Source: Propionibacteriaceae bacterium
GTDB taxonomy: Bacteria > Actinomycetota > Actinomycetes > Propionibacteriales > Propionibacteriaceae
Assembly: GCA_031261485.1 (NCBI GenBank)
Contig: JAISJO010000104.1
Location: forward strand, 1 to 39,745
DNA: 39,745 nucleotides
Direction: 5' to 3'
Shown here: piece after piece, positions 3,993-32,695 of the stretch
Layout of the letters: every line of letters begins with the position of its first letter
Numbering within the stretch: the stretch's first letter is position 1
Translations under genes and position numbers: made by a program
Notes under the pieces: generated by a model
What the model was told of the DNA's origin: nothing
Seen by the model: only the letters and a program-made list of their open reading frames with translations
Database searches by the model: none

Positions 3993-4049
3993 TTCCATCG
4001 TTGTTGGTTGTTGCCCTGTGGCTTCTTAGAGAAGGTAATTGGTGGGGGC

Positions 4050-4196
4050 GCCGCATGTGTGGGCAGTGTGGTGCGCAGGGCGTTTCGCGAGGCGGTGGCT
4101 GCGCCACTTTACCGCCTCGCTCCACTCGGGGCTTTCCCCAAATCGGTGGGACGATTTGCGCCCCAGCCTGCGCACCACACTGCCCACACCTGCGGC
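4050..4196. repeat. 147-base palindromic element, second copy
   Basis: Arms 4050-4079 and 4167-4196 form a 30-base inverted repeat with one mismatch; 23 of these bases (4057-4079/4167-4189) are perfect. The interior holds a 38-base core (4086-4123) that is a perfect reverse complement of 1877-1914. A second core near 4136-4163 is a near-perfect reverse complement of 1679-1704. The element is therefore the same family as 1617-2019 in the opposite orientation with a much shorter loop. It sits in the 520-base mazG-guaA gap, which has no gene. Confidence 0.78.
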
Positions 4197-4408: not shown

Positions 4409-4470
4409 GGTGGGGGCGCCGCAGGTGCGGGCAGTGTGGTGCGCAGGGCGTTGCGCGAGGCGGTGGCTGT
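4409..4470 (+). repeat. Half copy of the palindromic element beside guaA
   Basis: About 59 of 62 bases match 4041-4102, the left arm and start of the core. The matching right arm is missing; the copy ends about 30 bases before the guaA -10 box. It may be truncated by deletion, or retained because the right part was replaced by the promoter. Confidence 0.65.
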
Positions 4471-8903: not shown

Positions 8904-8958
8904 GAATTCGGTCTGTTCACTGCTGAGGGGCGCTGATCCCGTTTCGTCGGGGCAGGTC

Positions 8959-9155
8959 GGCCTGCCTCGGCATCACCCCCAAAATCCTCCGACGCTGGCT
9001 TGTCCACCATGGTGGCACTTGCGTCGAGGGGCGCCGTGCTCGGCGGCCTTGCCGCCTTCAACGACCTTCAATCGCCTCGGAATCGAAGCAAGCTTCGTTC
9101 CTCGGCTCAATCGGTCGTCCGGTGTTTGGGGGTCCCCCGACGCCGGGCGCGGCCC
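8959..9155 (+). repeat. Dispersed GC-rich repeat, long copy
   Basis: It occupies most of the 310-base convergent gap between the response regulator and the YeaQ-like gene; no gene is seen. Blocks 8959-9000 and 9119-9155 match, as reverse complement and in matching order, blocks 20024-20065 and 19950-19986. This copy carries about 80 extra internal bases, including hairpins GGCGGCC-TTG-CCGCC and GAAGC-AA-GCTTC. The 15-mer GGTCGGCCTGCCTCG occurs at 8955-8969 and again at 9193-9207, bracketing the element in direct orientation. Confidence 0.65.
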
Positions 9156-9213
9156 ATGGAACTGACTTTGCTCCAGGGCTGATGTGCCGCCTGGTCGGCC
9201 TGCCTCGCCCTTC

Positions 9214-19913: not shown

Positions 19914-19949
19914 GCTCCACGGAAACCCCGATGAACATGCCACTAACAA

Positions 19950-20065
19950 GGGCCGCGCCCGGTGTCGGGGGACCCCCAAACACCGGACGGCGCCCCTCGA
20001 TGAAAGTGTCACCATGGCAGCGAAGCCAGCGTCGGAGGATTTTGGGGGTGACACCGAGGCAGGCC
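19950..20065 (-). repeat. Dispersed GC-rich repeat, short copy
   Basis: Reverse-complement match to 8959-9155. Block 19950-19986 matches 9119-9155 at 36 of 37 positions, and block 20024-20065 matches 8959-9000 with few changes. The 37-base middle matches the start of the longer copy's middle and lacks its last ~80 bases. It lies between the rhodanese and oxidoreductase genes. Confidence 0.65.
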
Positions 20066-20078
20066 GAGTGCGTCGATC

Positions 20079-25104: not shown

Positions 25105-25106
25105 TT

Positions 25107-25140
25107 GTCAGATGGATTCCGCGACTTCGCGCAGAATGAC
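25107..25140 (+). repeat. Dispersed GCGACTTCGCGCAG repeat
   Basis: A 34-base unit, GTCAGATGGATTC through GCAGAATGAC, differing by one base from 26002-26035. The centre GCGACTTCGCGC can form a small hairpin. Confidence 0.7.
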
Positions 25141-25956: not shown

Positions 25957-26001
25957 GTGGTGTTGCGGTTCCCGTTGCTCATTGGCTGGATGCGACTGGG
26001 T

Positions 26002-26035
26002 GTCAGATGGATTCTGCGACTTCGCGCAGAATGAC
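26002..26035 (+). repeat. Dispersed GCGACTTCGCGCAG repeat between uppS and recO
   Basis: A 34-base unit differing at one position from 25107-25140 and in the same orientation. Relative to 25076-25104 it is inverted, so opposed copies bracket uppS. Confidence 0.7.
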
Positions 26036-30051: not shown

Positions 30052-30681
30052 TCAAAGCCCGCCCTCAGGCCCTGGGGAAGCACTGATCGTCAGCACTTCA
30101 CTAGCGGTGCCGTCCCTTGCCAGAGCACGGTAGTCGTCAGCCAGAATGCTGTAAATCGCCGCGTCGCCGATGCCAGCGTTGGGCGTCATGCGCTGTCGTA
30201 GGGTGCCTTCGTGGCGCATACCGCAGGCCGCCATGACCTTTCCTGAGTTGGGGTTACGGGTGTCGTGCTCGGCCTCAATGCGGTTGACGCCGACCTCCTC
30301 GAAGAAGAACCGGATCACTTCAGCCAGCGCCTCGGATGTGTACCCCTGATGCCACCAGGGTTGGCCGATGCAATAGCCGATGTCCACCATGGAGATGTTG
30401 TCGTCAGCGCCGACAACTCCTATGGCACCGATTGGTTGGCCGCTTTCCTTTGGCTCAATGGCCCATTGGTAGTAGTCCACGTCGGCGTACGACTGGCACC
30501 ACTGGCTCAGCAGCGAGCGGGAGACATCCAGATCTGGATGGGCTGGCCAGCGAAGAAACGTGGTCACCTCTGGATCGGAAGCCCAGTTATGAAACATTGC
30601 CTCAGCGTCAGTCAACGCGAATTGCCGCAGTGTTAGCCGACTTGTTTCCAGTCGGAGGGTTCCGAGATGCGAGGGTTTCAT
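30052..30681 (-). CDS. GNAT family N-acetyltransferase (RimJ/RimL-like)
   Basis: A 209-residue GNAT protein of the RimJ/RimL subgroup, expected to transfer acetyl from acetyl-CoA to an amine. The N-terminal ETSRLTLRQFALTDAEAMF (12-30) and the acetyl-CoA loop region IGYCIGQPWWHQGYTSEAL, then VNRIEAEHDTRNPNSGKVM, are typical. The substrate is unknown. The ATG at 30681 is chosen because the family domain begins there and a TAGACT box lies seven bases upstream; in-frame sequence further upstream is less plausible. Its promoter and first 22 codons are duplicated at 32245-32336 on the other side of the ATPase gene. Confidence 0.88.
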   Translation of the reverse strand: MKPSHLGTLRLETSRLTLRQFALTDAEAMFHNWASDPEVTTFLRWPAHPDLDVSRSLLSQWCQSYADVDYYQWAIEPKESGQPIGAIGVVGADDNISMVDIGYCIGQPWWHQGYTSEALAEVIRFFFEEVGVNRIEAEHDTRNPNSGKVMAACGMRHEGTLRQRMTPNAGIGDAAIYSILADDYRALARDGTASEVLTISASPGPEGGL

Positions 30682-30707
30682 AAGTGCGAGTCTATTGGGA
30701 GTGTGAC
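30616..30707. repeat. 92-base direct repeat, copy A (5' end of the GNAT gene)
   Basis: It matches 32245-32336 at 85 of 92 positions; within the first 66 bases, which code for GNAT residues 1-22, only two differ. The copy spans the GNAT start region and its leaderless promoter. Confidence 0.85.
30689..30694 (-). promoter_or_regulatory. Leaderless -10 box of the GNAT gene
   Basis: TAGACT on the minus strand, seven bases before the ATG at 30681. In the duplicate copy it has become TAGGCT. Confidence 0.45.
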
Positions 30708-30823
30708 CCAGTGTCATCTGCATCAGTCTCGACCGCAATAATGATGCGTCGACCTATGGCATCGGCCTTGAGACACAAGGACCCTCGCCCCTCTTTGCAG
30801 GGTTGCCGACACTATTGTCTATC

Positions 30824-30865
30824 AAAAAGTGTCAGTGGGATACACTTTTTCCCACTAAAAAGTGT
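30824..30865. promoter_or_regulatory. AAAAAGTGT repeat cluster upstream of the ATPase
   Basis: AAAAAGTGT occurs at 30824-30832, inverted as ACACTTTTT at 30842-30850, and again at 30857-30865. AGTGGG (30834-30839) and CCCACT (30851-30856) form an interleaved second inverted repeat. It is a likely operator or regulatory hairpin about 40-80 bases before the start codon at 30904. It is AT-rich against a GC-rich background. Confidence 0.5.
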
Positions 30866-30903
30866 TAGTCTAGGCGGGAGAGTTCCAGCATCGGAGGTAG
30901 GTC

Positions 30904-32229
30904 ATGCGTCGCAGAATCGAAGAGCGCTTGGCTCACTGGCAGGCGAAGCAACAACCTCTGCCGCTTCTGCTGCTGGGCGCACGTCAGGTGGGCAAGACTT
31001 ACACAGTGAGACAGTTTGCTCAGACTCACTTTCGGCAGGTGGCCTACGTCAACTTCCAGATGGATATTGCTCGTTTGACACGTCTGTTTGAGGCTGATCT
31101 TGACCCGAGGCGCATCGTCACCGATCTTGGCCTACTGCTGGGGATGAAAATCACTGCGGAAGACACCGTGCTCATCTTTGACGAGGTGCAACTGTGTCAG
31201 CCCGCTCTGACATCGTTGAAATACTTTGCTGAGCAATGTCCCCAGTTTCGCGTCATTGCGACGGGCAGCCTGTTCGGAGTGACCGTCTCGCGGGCCGCCC
31301 AGTATTCCTTCCCGGTTGGGAAAGTTGAGGTATTGCATCTTTACCCAATGGATTTTGAAGAGTTCTTGTGGGCGTTGGGTCATGATGACTGGGCACTAGG
31401 AATTCGTGACTGTTTTGAGCAGAATCGCGACTTCATCGGTCATGACCAGACTCTGTCGTATTACCGCCAGTATCTGATGGTGGGAGGTATGCCCGCCGCC
31501 GTCAAAGAGTTCATTGCTACTGAGGACTATCCTCAAGTGCGGGCGATTCAACAAGACATTTCTCTGCTGTACGCCGCCGACATGAATCTGTATCTTGACG
31601 ATGCTGATTCTGCTCGTACCCAGGCCATCTGGCACAGCGCCCCACAGCAATTGGCGCGAGAAACAAGCAAGAAGTTCAAGCTGTCTGACATGAAGCAGGG
31701 TGCCCGAGCAGGGCAGTACGAAGCAGGATTTGCTTGGTTGGAGAATGCTGGGCTGATCTACCGGAATTACCAGGCGGAACAACCCGTGGCACCGCTGAGG
31801 CCCCGTGGCGACGGTAGTTTCTTCAAGGTCTACCTGGCTGATGTGGGACTAGTGTCACAAGCCATGAGTATTCGTCCAGAAGTGTTCCTCAACGAGGATG
31901 AACGGCGTCTGATTTCCGGTGGATTCCACGGAGGATTGGCAGAGAACTACGTCCAGCAAGCTCTGAAGGCCAACAACGTGGATAGCTGCTACTGGGCTTC
32001 AGGGAACACAGCCGAAGTAGACTTTCTCGTTGTGAATTCGCACATGCAGGTGATTCCCGTGGAGGTGAAAGCGGGAGACAATGTGCGTTCTCGCAGTCTG
32101 AATGTCTACCGCGAACGCTATGATCCGCCCTACACGATTCGCCTCTCAACTCGCCGATTCGGACTAGACCAGGGCATTCGCGCCGTCCCCCTTTACGCTG
32201 CCTATTGTTTGGATGCGGACCTAGCCTGA
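30904..32229 (+). CDS. AAA ATPase with DUF4143 domain
   Basis: A 441-residue protein of the widespread AAA_14/DUF4143 ATPase family. Walker A is GARQVGKT (25-32). Walker B is VLIFDEVQ with D93-E94. A sensor-like ATGSLFG follows around 119-126. The DUF4143 C-terminal part ends in a PD-(D/E)xK-like core, EVDFLVV followed by IPVEVKAGD. Biological function is not established for the family; DNA-associated or defence-type roles have been guessed. GGAGGT precedes the ATG. Base composition is visibly more AT-rich than neighbours, and the gene is framed by 92-base direct repeats, so it was probably acquired. Confidence 0.9.
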   Translation: MRRRIEERLAHWQAKQQPLPLLLLGARQVGKTYTVRQFAQTHFRQVAYVNFQMDIARLTRLFEADLDPRRIVTDLGLLLGMKITAEDTVLIFDEVQLCQPALTSLKYFAEQCPQFRVIATGSLFGVTVSRAAQYSFPVGKVEVLHLYPMDFEEFLWALGHDDWALGIRDCFEQNRDFIGHDQTLSYYRQYLMVGGMPAAVKEFIATEDYPQVRAIQQDISLLYAADMNLYLDDADSARTQAIWHSAPQQLARETSKKFKLSDMKQGARAGQYEAGFAWLENAGLIYRNYQAEQPVAPLRPRGDGSFFKVYLADVGLVSQAMSIRPEVFLNEDERRLISGGFHGGLAENYVQQALKANNVDSCYWASGNTAEVDFLVVNSHMQVIPVEVKAGDNVRSRSLNVYRERYDPPYTIRLSTRRFGLDQGIRAVPLYAAYCLDADLA

Positions 32230-32244
32230 GGGTGTCGGAGTCGC

Positions 32245-32336
32245 CGCGAATTGCCGCAGTATTAGCCGACTTGTTTCCAGTCGGAGGGTTCCGAGATGCG
32301 AAGGTTTCATAAGTGCGAGCCTAATAGGAGTATGGC
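32245..32336. repeat. 92-base direct repeat, copy B (GNAT 5' remnant)
   Basis: Read on the minus strand it encodes MKPSHLGTLRLETSRLILRQ and a few more residues, i.e. the start of the GNAT protein, then diverges to a stop after about 29 codons. It also overlaps the last codons of the DivIVA-domain gene. It is a truncated duplicate, not a functional gene. Confidence 0.85.
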
Positions 32337-32518
32337 CGTGGTGGCACGTTGACTGTGGCACGTGCCGCTTCCCTCTTCAGGGCCTCGATTTCTGCGGTCA
32401 GAGCCTGAATTGTCTCCTCGACTTTGTCTAGGAAGTTGTCGACGCTCGCAACCTCGTACCCGCTTTGCCGCGACATCGGAAATCTCACCTTGCGTACCTC
32501 GTCAAGTGTCATAGTCAT
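32321..32518 (-). CDS. Short DivIVA-domain protein
   Basis: A 65-residue protein consisting of the N-terminal DivIVA membrane-binding and first coiled-coil segment: TLDEVRKVRFPMSRQSGYEV (4-23), then ASVDNFLDKVEETIQALTAEIEALKRE and a Pro-rich end. Full-length DivIVA/Wag31 proteins are much longer, so this is either a mini-DivIVA, common in actinobacteria, or a truncated relative. It may bind curved membrane at poles or septa. GAAAGG lies 11 bases before the first ATG; a second ATG two codons in is possible. Its stop lies inside repeat copy B. Confidence 0.78.
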   Translation of the reverse strand: MTMTLDEVRKVRFPMSRQSGYEVASVDNFLDKVEETIQALTAEIEALKREAARATVNVPPRPYSY

Positions 32519-32695
32519 CGGTGCCGCCTTTCACCTGTTCAGGACACCAATCCTGGGAAAACGCTAACTAGACCCAGGATATCGCAGGTAAGGACAGAAG
32601 GGGAGGGTCCTTTTTGTCTTGCTGGTGACAAGGGATGATGCCCTGGCGGCGACATCGGCCACACCTGCTACCTGGTACTTTCGTGTGCGACCTAC

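Follow-up and report, generated by a model that had tools for sequence, protein, structure and literature searches.

The window analyzed here is the whole 39,745-nt stretch of contig JAISJO010000104.1 (GenBank assembly GCA_031261485.1) from a Propionibacteriaceae bacterium. Within it, one ATPase-nuclease gene and the short repeat array upstream of it lie between two direct copies of the 5' end of a GNAT acetyltransferase gene, next to a fragment of divIVA (Table 1).

Table 1. Coordinates of the repeat-framed ATPase segment and its neighbors, as positions of the window.
Feature	Position	Strand	Basis or remark
GNAT acetyltransferase, complete, 209 aa	30052..30681	-	Acetyltransf_3 E 3.5e-36
Repeat copy A (upstream copy)	30610..30708	.	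GNAT codons 1-24 + 27 nt upstream
Leader, copy A to repeat array; absent beside copy B	30709..30808	.	Sequence
Iteron-like array	30809..30869	+	33-nt pitch; lag-33 score 10.5
Array degenerate element ACACTATTG	30809-30817
Array repeat AAAAAGTGTCAGT	30824-30836
Array inverted element ACACTTTTT	30842-30850
Array repeat AAAAAGTGTTAGT	30857-30869
PDC-S01 ATPase-nuclease, AAA_14 + DUF4143, 441 aa	30904..32229	+	Pfam, PADLOC, motif alignment
Truncated GNAT frame of copy B, 29 codons + stop; overlaps ATPase 3' end	32221..32310	-
Repeat copy B (downstream copy)	32239..32337	.	Direct-repeat match to copy A
divIVA 5' end + upstream region copy; ORF 32321-32518, 65 aa	32348..32594	-	81.7% over 241 nt, G000:C21

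The direct copies span 99 nt, are identical at 90/99 positions (91%), and lie 1530 nt apart (30709-32238). Chance similarity was ruled out by the alignment, by self-BLAST of copy A against copy B (E 3.6e-33), and by a DNA search, in which copies A and B were the only two places matched in the genome that the window comes from; with two copies only, a dispersed repeat family was ruled out as well. An earlier note on this DNA had described a 92-base duplication, 85/92 identical and covering 22 codons; the direct repeat is real, but its size is that given here, with 24 codons. The note had also taken copy A for the functional GNAT promoter, which is more than the 27 nt of GNAT upstream sequence in the repeat can show. 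Mismatches between the copies fall at 4/72 coding and 5/27 upstream positions. Copy B starts 10 nt past the ATPase stop codon and, as had been noted, encodes the same GNAT N-terminus as copy A and then a stop (MKPSHLGTLRLETSRLILRQFAATPTPSG, followed by a stop codon); the stop codon of the 65-aa DivIVA ORF falls inside it. No GNAT sequence was found beyond copy B. Other repeats occur in the window (35-81 nt, 88-97% identical), largely outside the larger ORFs; some are inverted (8957-9037 / 19987-20067, 9116-9158 / 19947-19989, 1871-1943 / 4059-4129), and further ones lie at 4041-4101 / 4409-4469 and 25106-25140 / 26001-26035.

The GNAT gene is patchily distributed, with a close match in 1/18 other genomes of the genus (G001, 54%), and its nearest relatives outside the genus among the sampled sequences were from Bacillota (34-60% over 19 loci). 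An empty DivIVA-GNAT site was sought in those 18 genomes, and only the G001 gene, with no adjoining ATPase, was recovered; no ATPase was found beside the neighbor GNATs of G001, G088 and G208 in the stretches read.

The DivIVA neighbor proved to be a 5' fragment that duplicates the start of the resident divIVA (window 32348-32588, 241 nt), which is an intact 425-aa open frame on another contig. The Pfam DivIVA match of the 65-aa ORF is limited to residues 4-55, and dN/dS between the fragment and the intact gene was 0.26. As copy B and the DivIVA piece are both gene 5' fragments, two 5'-end fragments abut here, 10 nt apart. The order DivIVA-GNAT, previously held to be original, is contradicted because the DivIVA piece is itself the 5' fragment of a gene located elsewhere. 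The fragment keeps its upstream region (62/70 nt identical) and lies where it might once have driven the old GNAT; promoter capture by an acquired gene is possible.

The ATPase protein contains AAA_14 and DUF4143 only, and no other notable long ORF lies between the repeats, which confirms that no transposase or integrase is encoded there. The motifs of an ATPase (Walker A G25-K31, Walker B D93 E94) and of a PD-(D/E)XK-type nuclease (E347, D373, E387, K389) appear intact in the window protein, and across 166 aligned proteins conservation was 99% for K31, 99% for D93, 100% for E94, 98% for E347, 99% for D373, 89% for E387 and 92% for K389. The protein matched the PADLOC PDC-S01 model PDLC04786 (E 1.6e-146), and four other family proteins matched PDC-S01 models at E 3.9e-74 or better; the window ATPase therefore belongs to the same sequence family as PDC-S01, catalogued by PADLOC as a candidate single-gene anti-phage defense. 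A PDB sequence search with the window ATPase gave one weak match (E 0.088), NCBIfam comparison gave no useful name, and no relatives were found in viral contigs. DUF4143 genes number 25 in this genome, 16 in G001 and 24 in G017, and at least 124/198 genomes of the taxonomic family carry one (at most 17 candidates scored per genome); among plasmid records, 59/72,556 hold a family member.

PDC-S01 has been described as the fourth commonest defense in prokaryotes, with an ATPase fused to a PD-(D/E)XK domain and multiple transfers between domains of life; it is unvalidated, and validation is pending for most such candidates (PMC12988326). In rumen genomes it was the most frequent individual locus (PMC13356809). 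The passages of PMC12988326 that describe the family do not mention upstream arrays or a one-gene mobile unit with duplicated ends, and a search of the literature outside preprints found nothing on mobility or upstream arrays of the DUF4143/PDC-S01 family. In arCOG03166, an archaeal family from 'dark matter' islands described as "likely involved in defense (or some plasmid gene)", HTH and RecB nuclease domains are fused to an AAA+ ATPase (PMC4158269); this family and the window ATPase are probably of one superfamily. Unlike the unit reading given below, the description of arCOG03166 in that source proposes no mobility mechanism.

For comparison with relatives, 160 stretches surrounding family members were used besides the window; they were hand-chosen from listings and thus non-random. 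Together with the window they contained 169 ATPase ORFs of at least 300 aa, of which 166 had enough flank for the repeat test. Control ORFs of 250-650 aa were taken from the same stretches (n = 420), some of them probably not genes. In the tight test, 450 nt upstream was compared with 300 nt downstream at a score of at least 38.

The earlier note's reading anticipated duplicated neighbor gene ends at the flanks of other DUF4143 ATPases, and such ends were found: direct repeats framed 15/166 ATPases, the window included, and inverted repeats 0/166. The corresponding figures were 9/420 direct and 2/420 inverted for control ORFs, and 2/4116 for permuted flank pairs; the direct-repeat excess over control ORFs was about fourfold (Fisher p 0.0004). 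Three of the 15 were array-type cases, with an array on both sides (L207, L302, L218), and without them 12/166 remained (p 0.005), with repeats of 29-99 nt. These P values are optimistic because flank sizes and threshold were chosen once earlier cases had been seen, and because the 15 include the window. A looser first test with 2-kb flanks gave 9/58 ATPases and 9/110 controls, without a clear excess, and the first tight test gave 4/60 and 6/235. The nine repeat-framed control ORFs were inspected and found to be mixed and partly spurious frames. Non-ATPase ORFs framed by direct repeats of 41-157 nt were also seen (L220 3216-4493, L218 1929-3221, L186 796-2268, L303 9601-11184); insertion of single genes with duplication may thus extend beyond the ATPases in these genomes.

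A neighboring gene could be named in nine of the repeat-framed cases; the others were the three array-type cases and four without an assignable gene (L313, L317, L245, L275). The duplicated parts are the GNAT 5' end in the window, the 3' ends of RecR (L222, 75/83 identical), peptidase M13 (L171, this genome, 45/53 identical), YchF (L296, 38/46 identical), a P-type ATPase (L292) and a DUF1707 protein (L247), and the 5' sides of an FtsX permease (L297), a CAAX protease (L298) and a 207-aa ORF without Pfam match (L175); in the last three the copy may precede the true start codon. In 9/9 named cases the complete gene stood upstream of the ATPase and the fragment downstream (sign test p 0.004). This is the geometry of one-sided integration, in which the gene is whole at one border and an allelic fragment that keeps an end of its own stands at the other. 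By a longest-open-frame measure, the upstream side won in 13/16 cases. Non-shared sequence of 45-100 nt often separates the upstream copy from the repeat array.

The two recR ends in G011 differ (VAGGGN and VAGD), each with its own stop codon, and so appear to behave as alleles would. At the differing sites, 10/13 relatives were nearer the upstream copy, 2 tied and 1 was nearer the downstream copy (4/17 relatives were dropped because the motif was not found); as relatives favor the upstream copy, age and constraint part the two copies besides any donor-recipient difference. Two places in this genome (G000:C78:92196-92411 and G000:C24:7828-8421) hold a recR gene and a second recR start of 72 aa (71% to the G011 query), which runs off the contig end and is possibly a second recR or a fragment. 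The ychF 3' end (VEFRFNV-stop) occurs 17-35 nt downstream of the ATPase at 5/174 loci in four genera (L245, L155, L156, L250, L296), with scores of 14-19 compared to at most 12 for 694 shuffled queries. Three of the five loci had no ychF in the stretch and no upstream copy above background; these ends look as if carried along.

Near-identical ATPases were also compared across contexts. Of 24 family pairs, 8 also have longer flanks in common; in the other 16, similarity is confined to the ATPase unit, apart from a short match elsewhere at most. In this genome, two members (contigs C43 and C20) are 93.6% identical over 1308 nt; the match begins 52/79 nt upstream of the start codon and runs to 2 nt past the stop. 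Three pairs drawn from four genera (L200/L239, L200/L234, L239/L240) are 91-93% identical over a stretch that begins 91-105 nt upstream of the start and closes 18-50 nt past the stop, and a pair within one genus (L246/L250) shares 92.9% from 142 nt before to 27 nt after. L200 and L240 (two genera) have the unit in common to 11 nt after the stop, plus 494 nt on the left (80.6%), and L234 and L240 have 133 nt in common on the left (73.7%). The right border of the unit is thus tight and the left one looser. Contamination is argued against, as genomes G164 and G073 are in 1 and ~20 contigs, respectively, and are 100% complete. The suggestion of an unrecognized mobile unit is strengthened by these near-identical ATPases in different contexts, as well as by the other members framed by duplicated gene ends.

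On Bacteroidales plasmids, L414 (Parabacteroides) and L413 (Bacteroides) have common flanks (left 90.3%, right 95.3%), with the ATPase in L414 and hipBA in L413 at one plasmid site. Homology with L413 breaks off 135 nt upstream of the ATPase start, at a point within the L413 HTH gene, and is picked up again 5 nt past the stop; in the comparison with L412 it is picked up 41 nt past the stop. The hipBA genes and the PDC-S01 unit swap exactly at this site (L412, L413 vs. L414). No clean empty site was found beside ychF and recR, where synteny with relatives resumes only ~8-10 kb away; G005 has no ATPase next to ychF, and synteny there resumes only ~10 kb away. DUF2344 and ychF are adjacent in G002, G010, G011 and G014 (4/17 relatives' loci, the others covering too little downstream), and in this genome they are parted, a family member following DUF2344. 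This arrangement was rejected as an empty site, being too complex.

The array of the window sits in the AT-rich stretch between copy A and the ATPase, and its repeat (30824-30836 / 30857-30869) has 2 exact matches in the window against 0.05 expected. When 170 nt upstream was scanned for direct repeats at a lag of 18-45 nt and a score of at least 10, arrays preceded 92/168 ATPases, 20/440 control ORFs and 1/168 shuffled sequences. The lag among the 92 was 22-23 nt in 71, 32-33 nt in 9 and 44 nt in 6. Within the subfamily of the window, 6/20 passed the test, 5 of them at 32-33 nt. From the 59 plasmid records, 11 loci of this subfamily were picked (L381-L389, L410, L411), and the best repeat lay at 32-33 nt in 8/11; of those tested by shuffling, 5/9 exceeded all 200 shuffles. 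The pitch of the window array also occurs upstream of relatives in other phyla. Pitches of about two or three helical turns suggest binding by an oligomer on one face of the DNA, and the protein bound would be the family member encoded behind the array.

The comparison of relatives suggests that the ATPase-nuclease gene travels as a one-gene unit with its own upstream repeat array. Such a unit would begin with an array of short direct repeats, continue directly with the PDC-S01 gene and close a few to tens of nucleotides beyond the stop; it would carry no transposase or integrase. The borders in the window itself are drawn by analogy, since no other ATPase among the 169 sampled exceeds 55% identity to the one in the window. 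Considering the framing repeat, its geometry in other members, the units common to different contexts and the arrays together, we judge the chances to be about even that the framed segment is a member of a family of one-gene mobile units and entered by one-sided recombination. The incoming DNA would have comprised the GNAT 5' end, the leader, the array and the ATPase gene, and would have joined the resident GNAT by homology on one side, with an illegitimate joint closing the opposite side a little beyond the ATPase stop. Alternatively, a linear piece may have closed into a circle and then entered by a single crossover in GNAT, with the same product. Either route would leave a complete GNAT on the upstream side of the ATPase, with copy B as the leftover 5' end of the old GNAT, beside which the divIVA fragment formerly ahead of the old GNAT would remain. 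We infer both this one-sided entry and which copy is the older.

One-sided entry would account for the complete gene upstream and the fragment downstream, the variable repeat length, the differing recR ends and the non-shared leader before the array. The earlier proposal that ~1.54 kb entered with duplication of the boundary is retained in that the 1530 nt behaves as an incoming unit, but one-sided recombination is a better fit than simple target-site duplication, because the repeats of the 12 non-array cases range over 29-99 nt, because the G011 recR ends each have their own stop codon, and because 45-100 nt of non-shared sequence often parts the upstream copy from the array. The junctions are those of homology-facilitated illegitimate recombination or single crossover, in which one end joins by homology and the other by an illegitimate joint; this, or circularization of linear DNA followed by a single crossover, is documented in E. 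coli (PMC3240628). That is, however, a host process without preferred cargo, which predicts neither an excess in one family nor a fixed orientation. One-sided entry alone would likewise leave the constant direction and the tight right border unexplained, and a candidate agent is the family's own nuclease. Free-standing homing endonuclease genes are one-gene units spread by a nuclease and host recombination, without a transposase. The unit described here resembles them in being a single gene without transposase. It differs in that its nuclease-like domain is joined to an AAA+ ATPase, that it includes a repeat array specific to the gene, and that the gene ends beside it are found duplicated where a homing gene would interrupt them cleanly.

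The alternative that survives best is the ordinary spread of a useful (defense) gene by transformation or conjugation with host recombination, the ATPase being passive and the array kept as an operator. Non-ATPase control ORFs too are framed by direct repeats (9/420), the family is catalogued as a defense candidate (PADLOC; PMC12988326) and is carried by plasmids, and the ychF and recR ends border islands of variable genes. The fourfold repeat excess over control ORFs, the consistent direction with its tight right border, and the 25, 16 and 24 copies in three genomes speak against it, and we regard it as a serious possibility that falls short of probable.

Transposition, either cut-and-paste or replicative, with a recombinase acting in trans and a long target-site duplication, would explain a defined unit with direct repeats on both sides, and is very unlikely given the repeat lengths of the 12 non-array cases, the non-shared leader between upstream copy and array, and the plasmid case, in which ~1.4 kb is replaced rather than an insertion made. 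The framed segment also lacks terminal inverted repeats: among 24 inverted pairs (at least 14 nt) checked, none joins both ends of 30709-32238. With no transposase either, the segment does not present an insertion sequence or transposon, and repeats of 29-99 nt are not a fixed short target-site duplication. Nor does it present a site-specific integrative element, there being no integrase between the repeats and the copies, at 90/99, not being an identical att core. A tandem GNAT duplication, one copy of which the ATPase later largely replaced, could predate the insertion as the copies are 9% apart, yet it is highly improbable since the same geometry stands beside unrelated genes (recR, ychF, M13 peptidase, others), which chance tandems do not explain, and no more GNAT sequence follows copy B.

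A broader form of the one-gene unit reading is that PDC-S01 is a large unrecognized class of recombinase-free mobile elements, in which the protein would recognize its own iteron array and mobilize its gene from a fixed 3' end, taking along a variable stretch of the upstream neighbor as a homology hook into the next genome. We put this forward tentatively and consider it rather unlikely as a whole. If true, the rank of PDC-S01 among the commonest 'defense systems', and its location inside other systems, would reflect mobility at least as much as immunity; PDC-S01 was proposed by 'guilt by embedding', and a mobile one-gene unit would yield the same pattern. The arrays would point directly to the DNA that the protein binds, and the moving piece could be defined in testable terms by the unit borders, which run from the start of the array to just beyond the stop codon.
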